Positions 49,169 to 64,000 of a stretch of DNA of 64,000 nucleotides are shown in pieces; positions within the stretch are counted from its first letter, which is position 1; the number at the start of each line of letters is the position of its first letter. The DNA comes from Caldithrix abyssi DSM 13497 (GTDB lineage: Bacteria; Calditrichota; Calditrichia; Calditrichales; Calditrichaceae): NCBI RefSeq assembly GCF_001886815.1, contig NZ_CP018099.1, positions 1,734,501-1,798,500 of the forward strand, read 5' to 3'. The translations under genes and the position numbers were made by a program. Under the pieces are notes generated by a model. The model made no database searches and was not told the origin of the DNA. It was given only the letters and a program-made list of their open reading frames with translations.

Positions 49169-49407
49169 GAAAGTTAATTTTAAGGATAGCGAGTCTGGCG
49201 GCCATTATCACTTTTGTTACGTGTGCTCTGAACGGCATTTCGCTGATGACCAGCATCTTTCGAAGCGCTGTAGTTTATCTGTTAACCATTTTGCTGGCCG
49301 TCATTATGCTGAATATTTTACGCTGGGGAGTGCTGGCAACCTCTCCCCCCGACACCTTACCCAAAAAACAAGAGCGTAAAGAACAAACTGAGAAGAAGAG
49401 TGAATGA
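49156..49407 (+). CDS. Small two-helix membrane protein between flhG and fliA
   Basis: This 83-residue protein has two hydrophobic segments (about 7-30 and 36-60) and a charged, Lys/Glu-rich cytoplasmic-looking tail. It overlaps flhG at its start and fliA at its stop, so translation is coupled to both. I do not recognise the family. Small membrane proteins occur at this place in several flagellar operons, so an accessory role in regulation or assembly is plausible but unproven. Confidence 0.8.
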   Translation: MEPLRKLILRIASLAAIITFVTCALNGISLMTSIFRSAVVYLLTILLAVIMLNILRWGVLATSPPDTLPKKQERKEQTEKKSE

Positions 49408-50177
49408 TGCAATCCACACTTTCCAAATTAAAAGAAACAGGCGAAGCGTTAGTAAAAGAATATCTTGAAACGCGCAACGAGCGGATTAAAGCTAAAATCG
49501 TTGAGCATTACGCGCCATTAATTAAAAACATTGTAGGCCGTTACAATTTGCACTATTCTACCACGCTCAACGCCGATGATCTTTACCAGTTTGGCATTTT
49601 AGGCCTGCTTAAAGCGCTGGAGCGTTTTAAAAGCAACGGCGTGCCGTTTCATGCTTTTGCCTACAAACGCATTTACGGCGAGGTTGTGGATGCCCTGCGT
49701 CGAGAAGGAATGATCGGACGCGATAAGTACGAAAAGGTACGTAAACTGGAGACAGCGGTTAAAAACCTCACCGCCTCGCTGGGCAGGGAACCCTCTACGG
49801 AAGAGGTGTGCCGGGCGCTGGACATCGACGAAAAAACCTATTACGATATTTTGAACACCTCGCTGCTGGTTTACACCACATCGCTCAACACCAAAATTAG
49901 CGACGACGAAGGCGATTTCATTTACAGAATCGATACCTTAACCGATGAAAGCGCCATGAGTCCGGAAGAAGAGCTGGAAAACCTTGATCTGAAACGACGC
50001 CTGAAAGAGATCATCTCTAATGAACTGAGCGATCGGGAAAAGATCATTCTGGCCCTCTATTTTTACGAAGAACTAACCCTGGCCGATATCCGAAAGGTCA
50101 TTAATTTAACAGAAGCGCGTATTTCACAAATTTTGAATCAAACCCTGATTAAAGTCAGAGTAAAATTGATGAAATAA
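49404..50177 (+). CDS. fliA: Flagellar sigma factor FliA (sigma-28)
   Basis: This 257-residue group 3 sigma factor has region 2 (IKNIVGRYNLHYSTTLNADD, LYQFGILGLLKALERF, FHAFAYKRIYGEVVDALRR), region 3 (RKLETAVKNLTASLGREPS) and region 4 (SDREKIILALYFYEELTLAD, INLTEARISQILNQTLIKVR). It directs late flagellar transcription and should be held by the FlgM-like protein at 190. The start may be the ATG at 49404 or at 49407. Sigma-28-like promoters appear before motA and before the gene at 59463. Confidence 0.97.
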   Translation: MMQSTLSKLKETGEALVKEYLETRNERIKAKIVEHYAPLIKNIVGRYNLHYSTTLNADDLYQFGILGLLKALERFKSNGVPFHAFAYKRIYGEVVDALRREGMIGRDKYEKVRKLETAVKNLTASLGREPSTEEVCRALDIDEKTYYDILNTSLLVYTTSLNTKISDDEGDFIYRIDTLTDESAMSPEEELENLDLKRRLKEIISNELSDREKIILALYFYEELTLADIRKVINLTEARISQILNQTLIKVRVKLMK

Positions 50178-58426: not shown

Positions 58427-58444
58427 AATAGGGAAAGGATGACC

Positions 58445-59323
58445 ATGCGAATTACACAATCCATGTTTGTGCGCAACACCATGCAGCGTTTATTCAAAAG
58501 CCGCGAAACGTTAATGAACACGCAAGATCGTCTGGCTACGCAGAAAAAGATTAAACTGCCGTCGGATAATCCTGTGGGCTACTCCAGAGCCCAGAGAATG
58601 CGCGAGGCCTATCGTCAGAATGAAGTGTTCCTTAAAAATATAGAAGAATCTGAAGGCTGGTTAGATCATACGTCCAGTTTGCTTGAACAGATTTATCAGA
58701 ATGTGGTTGACGCCCGAATTGAAGCCACCAAAGGCACGGACGCTGTGGCCACGCCGGAGTTGATGGATTCGCTGGCCAAACAGTTGCGCGGCATGATGGA
58801 TGAACTGGTGGCCACGTTAAATACTACCTATCTGGGTAAAAATGTATTTGGCGGAACGATTACCAAAGAAACCACGCCTTTTGAGAAAAACGACCTGGAT
58901 GTTACTTATCAGGGCAACGATCAACACATCAGACGCAGAATGTCCAGGCAGATTGTGATGGATATTAACGTTACGGGATCGGAAATAATGCAAACCAGCG
59001 TGTTCGATGCCTTGAAAGAAACCATCGTCGCCCTGGAAAACCACGATGTTGACGCCCTTAAAGGCGCGCTGGAAAATTTAAAGAGTTCAGAGAAAAATAT
59101 CCTTAATGTGAGCGCCGTTTACGGCTCAAAAATTAATAATCTGCTATTGATAAAAGAGCGAATGATCTCGACCAATGAGAATTTTCAGAAATTTATTTCT
59201 CAGGAAGAAGACGCCGTGCTGGAGGAGGAGATGATTAAATTAAAATCGGAAGAGATCGCTTATCAGGCGGCCTTGCAATCAACCAGTCAGATAATGGGAC
59301 TCAGCCTGCTCAAATATCTGTAG
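58445..59323 (+). CDS. flgL: Hook-filament junction protein FlgL
   Basis: This 292-residue FlgL has the flagellin-type N-terminus MRITQSMFVRNTMQRL, TQKKIKLPSDNPVGYSRAQR, and the C-terminal SEEIAYQAALQSTSQIMGLS heptads. An ATG two codons upstream (58439) is in frame, but GGGAAAGGA is better spaced for 58445, which gives the canonical MRIT start. It is the last recognisable flagellar structural gene in the window. Flagellin and its cap are not encoded here. Confidence 0.97.
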   Translation: MRITQSMFVRNTMQRLFKSRETLMNTQDRLATQKKIKLPSDNPVGYSRAQRMREAYRQNEVFLKNIEESEGWLDHTSSLLEQIYQNVVDARIEATKGTDAVATPELMDSLAKQLRGMMDELVATLNTTYLGKNVFGGTITKETTPFEKNDLDVTYQGNDQHIRRRMSRQIVMDINVTGSEIMQTSVFDALKETIVALENHDVDALKGALENLKSSEKNILNVSAVYGSKINNLLLIKERMISTNENFQKFISQEEDAVLEEEMIKLKSEEIAYQAALQSTSQIMGLSLLKYL

Positions 59324-59330
59324 GGGAAGG

Positions 59331-59420
59331 ATGATGACGGCAGTAACCAATGTATCTTTTAAGATATGTTCAACATGTGGAGAGATATGCATAAAAAGCT
59401 TTTATGCAAAAATCCGATAA
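59331..59420 (+). CDS. Possible 29-codon reading frame after flgL
   Basis: A short frame begins with ATGATG, 8 nt after the flgL stop and directly after GGGGAAGG. It encodes 29 residues including a CxxC (ICSTCGE). It overlaps the palindrome and the -10 box of the sigma-28-like promoter. It may be a real small gene, the remnant of a longer one, or chance. I see no csrA or fliW similarity. Confidence 0.3.
   Translation: MMTAVTNVSFKICSTCGEICIKSFYAKIR
59389..59407. repeat. AT-rich palindrome upstream of the transferase gene
   Basis: GCATAAAA (59389-59396) pairs with TTTTATGC (59400-59407) around AGC. It overlaps the -35 region of the sigma-28-like promoter, so it may be an operator or a weak terminator for the flgL transcript. 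Confidence 0.45.
59392..59420 (+). promoter_or_regulatory. Sigma-28-like promoter of the giant transferase gene
   Basis: TAAA (59392-59395), 17 nt, then TCCGATAA (59413-59420), seven of eight bases of the FliA -10 consensus GCCGATAA. The spacing is 2 nt longer than the usual 15. It lies 43 nt before the ATG at 59463. Late expression would suit a filament-modifying enzyme. Confidence 0.45.
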
Positions 59421-59462: not shown

Positions 59463-62400
59463 ATGGCTTTGATTATAGGTGGCATGCACAGATCGGGGAC
59501 ATCCCTTTTAACTAAAATATTACAAGAAGCAGGCTTGTTTCTTGGAGAAGCAGAAAAACTAATGCCGCCGGCGGAAGATAATCCTGAAGGATTCTGGGAA
59601 CATCTGGATTTTGTGAAATTGAATGATGAGCTACTCGAATACTTTGGCGGAGCCTGGGACCTGCCGCCTGATTTTCCTGAAAACTGGGAAACCCTACCCG
59701 CGCTTAATCTGTTTGAAGAGAGAGCAATTGAGCTCATCGAACAGTTTGAAGGGCAGGATTTTTGGGGCTGGAAAGATCCGCGTAATTCGCTAACCCTTCC
59801 TTTCTGGAAAAAACTGCTTCCGGAGACCTCTTTTATTTTGGTCATCCGCCATCCTCTGGAGGTGGCCAAAAGTTTGAAAAAAAGAAATTTCTTTTCTCTT
59901 CCTAATGGTTTAAATCTCTGGCGACAATATAACGCTTCCTTTGTCCGGGCGCAGGACTCAGGGCAAAGGATTCTGGTTGTTCATTATGAAAATCTTTTGT
60001 TGACGCCGGAAAAAGAGATTAAACGTATTTTTAAATGGCTCAATCGTGAATTATCCGAAGATTTACTCGTTAAAGTAAAAAATGCCGTAAAACCTGAACT
60101 GCGTCATCAAAAGGCAGACGAGACAGAGACCATCCTAACCGAAACGTTTTCCGATGTTCTGGACATGTACAAAACATTGTGTGACCATGCCGAATACAAT
60201 CCGAAAGCGCTCAAGCCTGAAGTTAAAAAAACATCCAAATCAGAAAAACCGGCTTTAACTTTAAAAAATACCTCGTTTTCCTATTGCCCCGATCCCATAT
60301 TTGTAATTGGCAGCTATCGTTCAGGAACCAGTGTGCTGGCGCATTCACTGGCAAAGCATTCGCAAACCTGGATTGGCGAAGAAAGTAACTTTATGGCGCC
60401 AATTGCCCGGCAGGCCATAGAGGCCTACAAGCTGGGAACGCAACATAAAGAAAGACACTGGCTTTACTCCCAGAATGTTAGCCTGGATGAATTTCTGTTT
60501 TATATGGGGCTGGGAATTAACGCGCTATACACCCAACGTGCGCAGGGCAAACGCTGGATCGAACAAACGCCCGAATACACGCTGGATGTTGCTTTGTTTT
60601 CGAAGATGTTTCCCGGAGCCAGCTTTGTGCACATAATTAGAGACGGACGGCAGGTTGTACACTCTCTGATAAACAGCAATTTTAACTTTTTCGCTGCTCA
60701 TGATTTTAAAAAAGCCTGTCAAACTTGGGTTAATTTTGTGCTTGGCGGTTTAGAGTTTGAAAAAAACAACGGCAAACAGGCTATTCGCGTTTATTACGAG
60801 TGGTTGAAAAAACAATCGTCTGAGCAATTCAGGAGTCTTGCGCAAAAATTGCATTTGCAGTTTGAAAGCAGCCTAACAGAGATGTTCGACAATGGTGTGG
60901 TGATTAATTCCTCTTTTAAAAATGGTAAAAGGAAAACCTGGCAGGAAAGCTGGACCCGGGAGCAAAAAGCGCTGTTTAATGAAATAGCCGGCCGTTTGTT
61001 GATAGCCCTTGGTTACGAAAAAGATGAACGGTGGGTAAAATCGTTAACTCCGAAAGAAAACCTGCCGGATCAGGACCTCAGAGCGCAGGATATTCTTTCG
61101 ATGGTTCGAAAAAGACAAATGGTATCAGTGCCTGAAAAAAAATCGAATCAGGACAAAGAAGCAAAGAAAAAGGCGCCGAAAGTCTCGCTGATTATTCCGT
61201 TGTTCAATAAACTGGAGTTAACTCATCGCTGTTTAAAAGCGATATTGCATAATACGCATTATCCGAGTTACGAAATTATTTTTGTGGACAATGGTTCAAC
61301 GGATGAAACGCGCCCTTATTTAAAGCAACTAAAACTTGCGAATGTTAAAATTGTATTAAATGATCAAAACCTTGGCTATGTGGGAGGCTGTAACAGCGGC
61401 GCAAACGTTGCTGATGGGCAGTTTTTACTGTTTTTAAACAACGATACCGAAGTACAGCCAGGCTGGCTGAAGAATCTTGTAGCATTAATGAATGAGCGCC
61501 CGGACTGCGGCGCGGTTGGCTGCAAGCTGGTGTATCCAGATGGTCGTTTACAGGAAGCGGGTGGGATCATTTTTTCCGACGGTCAGGGATGGAACTACGG
61601 TCGGGGTTTTAATCCCAATGATCCGCGTTTTAATTTTGTCCGCGAGGTAGATTATGTGTCCGGTGCGGCTTTAATGATCAGGCGGAATGTTTGGGAAAAA
61701 GTAGGCGGTTTTGACACGCGTTACATGCCGGCCTATTACGAGGATACCGATCTTTGTTTTAGCGTCCGGCAACAGGGTTACAAAGTATATTATCAACCGG
61801 CCAGCGTGGTCATCCACTATGAAGGGCAGACCGCGGGTACCGATTTGAACAGTGGGTTCAAGAAATATCAGCAAATTAATCGGAAAAAATTTGTGGAAAA
61901 GTGGAAGCACATTTTAAGCGATCAATTTACAAATGATCCTGAAAATGTTCCTTTTGCTTCGCAACGCAATGTAAAATTTCGCATTTTAGTAGCCGATCCA
62001 TTTTTACCGTTATGGGATAAAGCTTCTGGTTCACTACGCCTTTTCAATTATTTAAAGATTCTTAAGAAACAGGGAAATCACATTACGTTTATTGCTCGGG
62101 TGGGTTCTACAGACCCTAAATACAAACACACTTTGCAGCAGTTAGGTATTGAGGTTTACGAAAATGATGAGCGCGCTTTAAATTTTGCCGGTTTTGTGGT
62201 TAATAGGAAATTGCCCGAAATTCCATATAAAACTATTTTTAAAGAACGCCGCTTTGACGTGGCCATTTTGTCTTTTTGGCATGCTGCCTTTTATTACATG
62301 GAGCTGATCCGCGAAATGTCTCCGACTACCAAAGTTATTGTGGATACGGTGGATATCCATTTTGTGCGCGAATTTCGAGAAGCGAAACTGAAAAAAGATA

Positions 62401-64000
62401 AACGGTTAGAAAGCGAAGCGAAACGAAAAAAACAACAGGAATTAGCTGTTTACCGGAAAGCGGATCGTTTATGGGTTGTAACAGAAGAAGACCGTAAGCA
62501 CATTGAAAAATATGTAGGCAATATGCCCATTGACATTGTGCCCAACATTCATGAACCGGTTGTGGTTGAAAAAGCGTTTGATCAAACCAGAGATCTCTTG
62601 TTTGTGGGGAATTTTAGTCACCCGCCCAACATCGATGCCGTAACATACTTCGCATCGAAAATCTTTCCTGAAATCAAAAAAACATTAAACGATGTAAAGT
62701 TTTACGTGGTGGGCAATAATCCGCCGCCTGAAATTAAAGCGTTACAAAGCGAAGATGTTATTGTTACCGGTTATGTAGCCGATCTGGATCCGTACCTGAT
62801 TAAAGCGCGGATTTCTGTCAGTCCGTTGCGTTATGGCGCCGGTATGAAAGGAAAAATTGGACAGGCGTTGAGTTATGGTCTTCCGGTGATTACTACCTCC
62901 ATTGGCGCAGAGGGCATGAACCTGGTTCATGGCGAACACGTCCTGATTGCCGATGATCCGGAAAAGTTTGCCGAAGAAACCATCAGATTGTACCGGGATC
63001 GAGGATTGTGGAAAAAACTATCCCGTTCGGGTAAGCAGTATGTAGAGCAGAAGTGGGGTCCTGCCAGCGTAGAAAATAAGTTGCGAAAAATCATCACAGC
63101 GACAAGTGCCGGGCGTCGGAATAATCCTAAAGTCTCCATCATCATGCTCACTTACAACGCGCTGGAATTTACTAAAAAATGCGTCAATTCCATCCTGCAA
63201 AATACGCATATTCCTTATGAAATCATTTTTGTGGACAACGGCTCAAAAGACGGCACGGTGGACTATCTGAGGTCCTTGCAAGCAGAGTATGATCACATTC
63301 GGGTTGTTTTCAACAAAAAGAACAAAGGTTTTGCCGCGGGCAACAATCAGGGCGCGAGAAAAGCCAGAGGAAAATACCTGCTCTTTTTAAATAACGACGT
63401 GCTGGTGGCCGATGGCTGGCTGGAAGAACTGGTGAGCGCTCTGGAAAAAGATCCGCAAATCGGCATGGTGGGCCCGATTACCAATTCCATCAGCGGTTTG
63501 CAGCGCGTGGAACAAATTCCCTACCAGAATGACGACGGTTTTTACCCCTTTGCGGCAAAGGTAAAAGACGTGAATCGCGATAAAATAACCCCTCGTCGCA
63601 GAATCGCCGGCTTTTGTCTGCTGATGCCTAAAACGCTGTTTGAACGGATTAAGGGATTTGACGAGAGCTTTGGCACGGGAAATTTTGAAGACGACGACCT
63701 GTGTATTCGCGTCCGTCAGCAGGGCTACGCCATTATGGTGCACGAGGGCGTGTTCATCCATCATTATGGCAGCCAGACCTTTAAAGCCAATAAGATCGAT
63801 TACGATCAAAGCATCAAAAACAAGGCGCGCGTCTTTTTTCGCAAACATCCGCATGTGGATTACGAAGAGCTGCTGGAGATGAAAAAGCCGTTGGCGCAGG
63901 TGCACGCTCGCTTAAAGGAAGAGATGAACGCGGCCTTTGGCGAAAGCGATTTTAAAAAGGCGGCGCAGCTGGCCCGACAGATTGCAGCCGAAAATCCGCT
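59463..64000 (+). CDS. Giant sulfotransferase/glycosyltransferase fusion protein (partial, runs off window)
   Basis: One frame stays open from the ATG at 59463 (after GGGAG) to the window end, more than 1,510 codons. Domains in order are a sulfotransferase-like domain (P-loop GGMHRSGTS, residues 6-14), a second one (GSYRSGTS, 283-290; IEQTPEYTLDVA; FVHIIRDGRQVVHS), a GT2 glycosyltransferase (PKVSLIIPLFN near 572; FVDNGSTDE; FLNNDTE; YEDTDLCFSVRQQG), a GT4 glycosyltransferase (about 839-1215; DLLFVGNFSHPPN, SVSPLRYGAGMKGKI, LSYGLPVITT), and a second GT2 (PKVSIIMLTYN near 1222; FVDNGSKDG; FLNNDV; FEDDDLCIRVRQQG). A helical, perhaps TPR-like, tail begins near 1490. It probably makes a surface glycan, for example on flagellin, given its position and promoter. 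The activity of the sulfotransferase-like parts is unproven. Confidence 0.93.
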   Translation, partial: MALIIGGMHRSGTSLLTKILQEAGLFLGEAEKLMPPAEDNPEGFWEHLDFVKLNDELLEYFGGAWDLPPDFPENWETLPALNLFEERAIELIEQFEGQDFWGWKDPRNSLTLPFWKKLLPETSFILVIRHPLEVAKSLKKRNFFSLPNGLNLWRQYNASFVRAQDSGQRILVVHYENLLLTPEKEIKRIFKWLNRELSEDLLVKVKNAVKPELRHQKADETETILTETFSDVLDMYKTLCDHAEYNPKALKPEVKKTSKSEKPALTLKNTSFSYCPDPIFVIGSYRSGTSVLAHSLAKHSQTWIGEESNFMAPIARQAIEAYKLGTQHKERHWLYSQNVSLDEFLFYMGLGINALYTQRAQGKRWIEQTPEYTLDVALFSKMFPGASFVHIIRDGRQVVHSLINSNFNFFAAHDFKKACQTWVNFVLGGLEFEKNNGKQAIRVYYEWLKKQSSEQFRSLAQKLHLQFESSLTEMFDNGVVINSSFKNGKRKTWQESWTREQKALFNEIAGRLLIALGYEKDERWVKSLTPKENLPDQDLRAQDILSMVRKRQMVSVPEKKSNQDKEAKKKAPKVSLIIPLFNKLELTHRCLKAILHNTHYPSYEIIFVDNGSTDETRPYLKQLKLANVKIVLNDQNLGYVGGCNSGANVADGQFLLFLNNDTEVQPGWLKNLVALMNERPDCGAVGCKLVYPDGRLQEAGGIIFSDGQGWNYGRGFNPNDPRFNFVREVDYVSGAALMIRRNVWEKVGGFDTRYMPAYYEDTDLCFSVRQQGYKVYYQPASVVIHYEGQTAGTDLNSGFKKYQQINRKKFVEKWKHILSDQFTNDPENVPFASQRNVKFRILVADPFLPLWDKASGSLRLFNYLKILKKQGNHITFIARVGSTDPKYKHTLQQLGIEVYENDERALNFAGFVVNRKLPEIPYKTIFKERRFDVAILSFWHAAFYYMELIREMSPTTKVIVDTVDIHFVREFREAKLKKDKRLESEAKRKKQQELAVYRKADRLWVVTEEDRKHIEKYVGNMPIDIVPNIHEPVVVEKAFDQTRDLLFVGNFSHPPNIDAVTYFASKIFPEIKKTLNDVKFYVVGNNPPPEIKALQSEDVIVTGYVADLDPYLIKARISVSPLRYGAGMKGKIGQALSYGLPVITTSIGAEGMNLVHGEHVLIADDPEKFAEETIRLYRDRGLWKKLSRSGKQYVEQKWGPASVENKLRKIITATSAGRRNNPKVSIIMLTYNALEFTKKCVNSILQNTHIPYEIIFVDNGSKDGTVDYLRSLQAEYDHIRVVFNKKNKGFAAGNNQGARKARGKYLLFLNNDVLVADGWLEELVSALEKDPQIGMVGPITNSISGLQRVEQIPYQNDDGFYPFAAKVKDVNRDKITPRRRIAGFCLLMPKTLFERIKGFDESFGTGNFEDDDLCIRVRQQGYAIMVHEGVFIHHYGSQTFKANKIDYDQSIKNKARVFFRKHPHVDYEELLEMKKPLAQVHARLKEEMNAAFGESDFKKAAQLARQIAAENP

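Follow-up and report, generated by a model that had tools for sequence, protein, structure and literature searches.

Directly after flgL, at the end of a flagellar gene cluster of Caldithrix abyssi, lies a single giant gene that encodes two sulfotransferase domains (ST1 and ST2), three glycosyltransferase domains and a TPR tail. We judge it rather probable that the product is a one-polypeptide enzyme for the glycosylation and sulfation of flagellin. The flagellar part of this reading is well supported by what gene order suggests, and active sulfation is moderately supported. A bolder version is held tentatively, at slightly less than even confidence: that a single-chain assembly line builds and sulfates the flagellin glycan, that sulfotransferase and methyltransferase modules are gained and lost among related species ahead of a fixed GT2-GT4-GT2-TPR core, and that the product is the first sulfated bacterial flagellar filament.

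Domain organization of the giant protein

The stretch of DNA analyzed (the window; 64,000 nucleotides, positions 1734501 to 1798500 of one 4,978,541-bp contig) contains a flagellar cluster with the sigma-28 gene fliA (49404-50177, + strand; TIGR02479 FliA_WhiG above cut-off) upstream of the giant gene, and the cluster ends in flgK, flgL and the giant gene itself. The gene for the hook-filament junction protein, flgL (58439-59323, + strand; an ORF with a Flagellin_N match over the cut-off), is directly upstream of the giant gene and is separated from it by 139 bp. From position 59463 (+ strand) the frame of the giant gene remains open through the window end at 64000, and it stops at the window-equivalent position 65021 (contig position 1799521) to give a product of 1,852 aa. 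The sequence-only reading had described an unbroken frame of more than 4.5 kb that directly follows flgL and encodes, in order, two sulfotransferases, a GT2, a GT4 and a GT2; all of this held, Pfam giving the order Sulfotransfer_1/3, Sulfotransfer_3, GT2, Glyco_trans_1_4, GT2, and extension to the stop codon added TPRs as the further domains.

All of the domains are encoded on the + strand. ST1 occupies aa 1 to 245 (59463-60197; Sulfotransfer_1/3 at about residues 4 to 228), and ST2, which resembles tyrosylprotein sulfotransferases (TPSTs) according to phmmer, Foldseek and an alignment of four homologues, occupies aa 262 to 546 (60246-61100; Sulfotransfer_3 at 278 to 468). The first GT2 domain (aa 568 to 850; 61164-62012; Pfam span 575 to 804) has the motifs VDNGS, LNND and YEDTD, and the second (aa 1220 to 1480; 63120-63902; Pfam span 1225 to 1442) has VDNGS, LNND and FEDDD; between them is a GT4-type domain (aa 855 to 1215; 62025-63107; Glyco_trans_1_4 at 1043 to 1179). 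The C-terminal TPR tail (aa 1490 to 1852), which Pfam places from about residue 1490 to the C terminus, begins within the window (63930-64000) and lies almost wholly beyond it, ending at 65021. The highest 19-residue hydropathy, 1.3, is too low for a transmembrane helix; with no transmembrane segment, the giant protein should be cytoplasmic.

Flagellar neighborhoods across Calditrichota

One flagellin gene belongs to the same cluster and lies 3 kb ahead of the window; another was found 83 kb downstream. Orthologues of flgL were present in 26 of 40 genomes of Calditrichota, and the DNA downstream of flgL was read in 25 of these 26, the present genome included. Genes of a glycan-modification type followed flgL in all 25 neighborhoods; in G005 and G010 these were acyltransferase-like genes assigned by similarity only, and the contig of G010 then ends. 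Either GT2a-GT4-GT2b or GT2-TPR elements occurred within the DNA read in 18 of the 25, with a 19th case (G019) further downstream. One group of genomes (G024, G025, G026, G028, G033 and G035) has the order flgL-fliW-csrA-GT2-TPR followed by flagellin genes, except that csrA was not called in G026 and the contig of G024 ends before any flagellin gene; in the other five, the GT2-TPR orthologue sits between fliW/csrA and the flagellin genes. In a second group, the genes after flgL encode acyltransferase-like proteins, sulfotransferases, methyltransferases and aminotransferases together with giant glycosyltransferase proteins, and no glycosyltransferase match fell in the stretch covered in G004, G005, G010, G015, G016 and G018, mostly where the contig or range ends.

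In 14 of the 25 neighborhoods, sulfotransferase domains were encoded downstream of flgL (G000, G001, G002, G008, G015 to G020, G023, G032, G034 and G036); the standalone sulfotransferase gene of G017 was assigned because it is nearly identical to the one in G018. Each genome encodes about six such domains, so that placement of one within 15 kb of flgL by chance would be near 2% per genome, a rough guide that ignores shared ancestry; the neighborhood counts are not phylogenetically independent. Linkage to flgL nevertheless persists across several families of Calditrichota. The putative flagellar assignment is well supported because the gene order is conserved in many relatives and is not a feature of one locus alone. 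In two second-family flagellar islands, we also observed genes that look like acyl-carrier protein, AMP ligase and short-chain reductase genes (L079, 5429-7978; L082, 9584-11898), which suggests that acyl or amino-acyl groups may decorate the flagellar glycan there.

Eighteen bp after the giant gene and beyond the window (65040-66422, + strand) is a gene for a 460-aa protein in which both Pfam and a structural model place a GT2 domain ahead of TPRs. Its best phmmer match among solved structures is GmaR (E = 2.5e-31), followed by SunS (1.7e-22). The structural model (mean pLDDT, 88.8) gave matches to SunS/ThuS as well as to the TPR domain of O-GlcNAc transferase. Identity as SunS was considered and rejected; the fold is similar, but the protein scores 105 bits against the curated TIGR04195 cut-off of 350, and for this reason we call it GmaR-like. 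When this protein was searched for in 11 whole genomes, its best match was at the flgL locus in 9; the exceptions are G019, with the best match 22 kb downstream of flgL, and G003, with the match on another contig (the contig is broken). The genes beyond the GT2-TPR gene are on the opposite strand, and no polymerase, flippase or transporter gene was recognized beside the giant gene in this genome. A capsule or O-antigen cluster downstream, which the sequence-only reading had named as an outcome against a flagellar role, is thus not what follows; there is one flagellin-glycosyltransferase-like gene, after which the island ends.

Sulfotransferase domains and PAPS supply

Each sulfotransferase domain has both a 5'-phosphosulfate-binding loop and a 3'-phosphate-binding motif. 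In ST1 these are HRSGTS (residues 9 to 14) and RHPLEVAKS (129 to 137), with WKDPR (103 to 107) in between, and HRSGTS, the KDP motif and the R..P..VA.S motif are kept in an alignment of seven homologues; the model pLDDT of this domain is mostly 85 to 97. ST2 has YRSGTS (from 285), GEES (from 305) and RDGRQVVHS (from 393), and RSGTS, the second Glu of GEES and IRDGR.VV.S are kept in the four homologues from flagellar loci. ST2 matched human TPST1 with an E value of 2.8e-9 (phmmer). An AlphaFold model of aa 1 to 549 had a mean pLDDT of 83.7 and a pTM of 0.53, the mutual placement of ST1 and ST2 being uncertain, and its best Foldseek matches were TPSTs with bound PAP (E = 2.2e-8; TM = 0.60 to 0.68 by target length). 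The catalytic set of TPST2, which we take to be Arg78, Glu99 and Lys158, is partly preserved: in the alignment, the Arg (R286) and the Glu (E307) are kept, and the position of Lys158 is occupied by Gln368 (Gly in G032). The alternative that these domains lack PAPS-binding residues, raised in the sequence-only reading, was not borne out, as the motifs are kept and the predicted structure matches TPSTs solved with PAP.

The genome encodes PAPS synthesis in two adjacent genes, cysC (4455732) and sat (4456306). No family match for a PAPS reductase was found in this genome, and the same model matched in 14 of 14 control genomes. Since sat and cysC are present and a PAPS reductase match is absent, the PAPS made is probably destined for sulfate transfer. 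Elsewhere, the genome encodes seven more Sulfotransfer_3 domains, and therefore the giant protein is one candidate consumer of PAPS among others. The sat-cysC pair itself (L132, 7660-9457; genome about 4455660-4457457) apparently serves sulfate activation for sulfotransferases and not assimilation. Separately, two genes with Sulfotransfer_3 (L134, genome 1660001-1680000; 3392-12370 and 12403-17094, - strand) encode proteins of 2,992 and 1,563 aa that appear NRPS/PKS-like, a label taken from the start of the translations only, and sulfotransferase domains within open frames of similar size were seen in many genomes of Calditrichota.

Modularity and distribution of the fusion

The sulfotransferase modules ahead of the shared core vary between species of the same genus, which have ST1 and ST2, ST1 only, or neither. 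Thus, G002 has ST1-ST2-GT2 after flgL and G001 has ST1-GT2, the contig then ending in each case, and in G003 the order GT2-GT4-GT2-TPR begins at residue 11, with no sulfotransferase in the sequenced part. Because G003 has the core without a sulfotransferase in the part sequenced, sulfation would not be needed for basic function. Beyond the genus, G023 and G032 have methyltransferase and ST2 domains ahead of the same core, and the G032 protein reaches 3,036 aa. The species series amounts to a natural experiment in modular evolution. An assembly error as the source of the fusion was also considered and is unlikely, since in G002 the ST1-ST2-GT2 order is encoded in one frame after flgL.

An alignment-based search of 84,980 genomes for ST2 returned 39 loci, among which the only close relatives were three Calditrichota records (59, 54 and 44% identity); the other loci were more distant and were standalone sulfotransferase genes or clusters lacking any flagellar match. 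Fusions of the ST1-GT2-GT4 type, about 1,130 to 1,235 aa long and with neighboring ST2-like genes, occur in Chthoniobacterales and in one Acidimicrobiales genome; the surrounding DNA examined gave no match to flgL, flgK or flagellin. It follows that the sulfotransferase-glycosyltransferase fusion is a wider module and that this architecture alone is no sign of flagella; the present case is distinguished by the use of such a fusion beside flgL and with a TPR tail. Among the individual loci of Verrucomicrobia/Chthoniobacterales, ORFs of about 1,100 aa beginning with ST1 were seen at L102, L106, L107, L109, L118, L120, L122, L126 and L127; GT2 and GT4 were confirmed in L106 and L122, ST2-like genes occur at the same Chthoniobacterales loci, and there was no flagellar match where checked.

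Proposed mechanism and alternative explanations

In the mechanism that we favor, the separate GmaR-like GT2-TPR protein would put the first sugar on Ser or Thr residues of flagellin before export. The giant protein would then dock to flagellin via its TPR tail, and its GT2, GT4 and GT2 domains would add up to three more sugars. ST1 and ST2 would transfer sulfate from PAPS to hydroxyls of the flagellin glycan, and the sulfated glycoprotein would be exported to the filament. We infer the acceptor, the order of action, the sugars, the position of sulfate on sugar and the sulfated product. Modification of flagellin or of a hook-associated protein, as proposed in the sequence-only reading, is thus supported by the flgL linkage in relatives, the GmaR-like partner, and the finding of neither a downstream capsule or O-antigen cluster nor a loss of PAPS-binding residues. 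A point against modification of flagellin is that the C. abyssi genome paper reported a full flagellar gene set and occasional tumbling motility but no flagella by electron microscopy (PMC5317091). The Gln of ST2 at the TPST2 Lys158 position counts against the combined mechanism.

That same Gln, replaced by Gly in G032, would fit sulfotransferase domains that are vestigial or inactive, so that the enzyme product is an unsulfated glycan, as would the missing modules of G003 and the reduced set of G001. We consider this improbable, since the four ST2 homologues do not vary in the phosphate-binding motifs or at the TPST catalytic Glu position, the motifs of ST1 are kept in all seven of its homologues, and the PAPS-synthesis pair is retained without a detectable PAPS reductase. 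It is likewise unlikely that the giant gene lies after flgL by coincidence and that its product serves instead to synthesize a sulfated polysaccharide, surface or secreted, or to modify a different protein. The non-flagellar Chthoniobacterales and Acidimicrobiales loci, with their ST1-GT2-GT4 fusions and adjacent ST2-like genes, lend themselves to that explanation, and giant glycosyltransferase/sulfotransferase proteins are also encoded away from flgL in Calditrichota (G009, G010, G024, G025 and G027); however, the flgL linkage holds across several families, the partner protein is GmaR-like, its gene being followed by flagellin genes in one branch, and no gene for a polymerase, flippase or transporter was recognized next to the giant gene here.

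The acceptor and the sulfated residue may also differ from those proposed. The giant gene follows flgK-flgL, not flagellin, in this genome, as might be expected if a hook-associated or cap protein (FlgL, FlgK or FliD) were the acceptor; we regard this as quite unlikely, because in related genomes flagellin genes come directly after the partner GT2-TPR gene and the nearest functional models, GmaR and FlmG, act on flagellin. Direct, TPST-like sulfation by ST2 of a tyrosine in a flagellar protein, and not of a sugar, would agree with TPSTs being the closest solved relatives of ST2 by both sequence and fold. We nevertheless consider this very unlikely. ST2 has low similarity (about 20%) to TPSTs and belongs to a broad Pfam family, three sugar transferases share its polypeptide, and flagellin 1 has a single Tyr in its central region, compared with 21 Ser/Thr.

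Comparison with known systems

Flagellin glycosylation in bacteria is already well known. GmaR of Listeria monocytogenes is a flagellin O-GlcNAc transferase and antirepressor that transfers GlcNAc to flagellin and whose TPR domain has been proposed to recognize flagellin (PMC9638930). The downstream 460-aa protein shares its GT2-then-TPR layout; GmaR (637 residues) differs in its additional linker and antirepressor domain and in its single glycosyltransferase, whereas the GmaR-like protein is paired with a giant protein of multiple glycosyltransferase and sulfotransferase domains. FlmG of Caulobacter crescentus is, similarly, a soluble flagellin glycosyltransferase that acts in the cytoplasm, and its TPR domain, not its glycosyltransferase domain, binds flagellins (PMC7591256). 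FlmG has one GT-B domain, which transfers pseudaminic acid, and an N-terminal TPR domain, in contrast to the three glycosyltransferase domains, two sulfotransferase domains and C-terminal TPRs of the giant protein. The flagellin glycosylation islands of Geobacillus (PMC5109656) and Enterobacteriaceae (PMC4875605) also place glycan-assembly genes inside the flagellar cluster, with a content that varies between close relatives; these two papers contain no words starting with sulfo- or sulfat- and do not mention fused enzymes.

With respect to sulfation, ST2 shares its fold, phosphate-binding motifs and catalytic Glu position with human and tick TPSTs (3ap1, 5wri and 8w5z) but differs from them in its low identity, the replacement of Lys158, its fusion to glycosyltransferases, its bacterial origin and its predicted cytoplasmic location. 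Halobacterial archaellins were reported in 1985 as sulfated glycoproteins, although a study of 2019 did not detect sulfated sugars on them (PMC6591318); the two sulfotransferases of the halobacterial pathway, Agl30 and Agl31 of Halobacterium salinarum, were identified in 2025, act on the N-linked glycan of its glycoproteins and have been studied for their effect on motility (PMC11980604). They differ from ST1 and ST2 in being archaeal, separate proteins that act on N-linked glycans. The open literature yielded no report of sulfation of bacterial flagellin or of sulfotransferases encoded within flagellin glycosylation islands, and the sole paper there that pairs "flagellin glycosylation" with "sulfotransferase" concerns giant viruses; as subscription journals lie mostly outside that search, this absence is weak evidence of novelty. 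If the proposal is true, the sulfated filament would carry a strong negative charge, and glycan assembly by the fused enzyme would follow an order set within a single polypeptide. The claim of flagellin sulfation is directly testable by mass spectrometry, the organism being cultivated.

The interval between flgL and the giant gene

A sigma-28-like promoter had also been claimed for the giant gene. A relaxed-pattern scan located the sequence TAAA-N17-TCCGATAA at 59392-59420 (+ strand), one of 2 matches in the window versus 0.16 expected, so that the sequence is present; its status as a promoter is uncertain. The N17 spacing is longer than the usual 15, a one-mismatch scan gave comparable sites elsewhere in the window, and the two flagellin genes, like the homologous genes of G001 to G003, had no such site ahead of them. 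Moreover, the site overlaps a possible gene remnant, a 29-codon frame at 59331-59420 (+ strand; MMTAVTNVSFKICSTCGEICIKSFYAKIR followed by a stop). Through the pattern FKICS.CG this frame matches proteins of G002 and G001, for which 1 and 5 of 5000 shuffles, respectively, were as good. In both of these genomes, a Cys-rich protein of 121 to 133 aa with no Pfam match is encoded between flgL and the giant gene (L031, 17436-17801; L021, 2321-2722), and the 29-codon frame is possibly a remnant of the start of such a gene.
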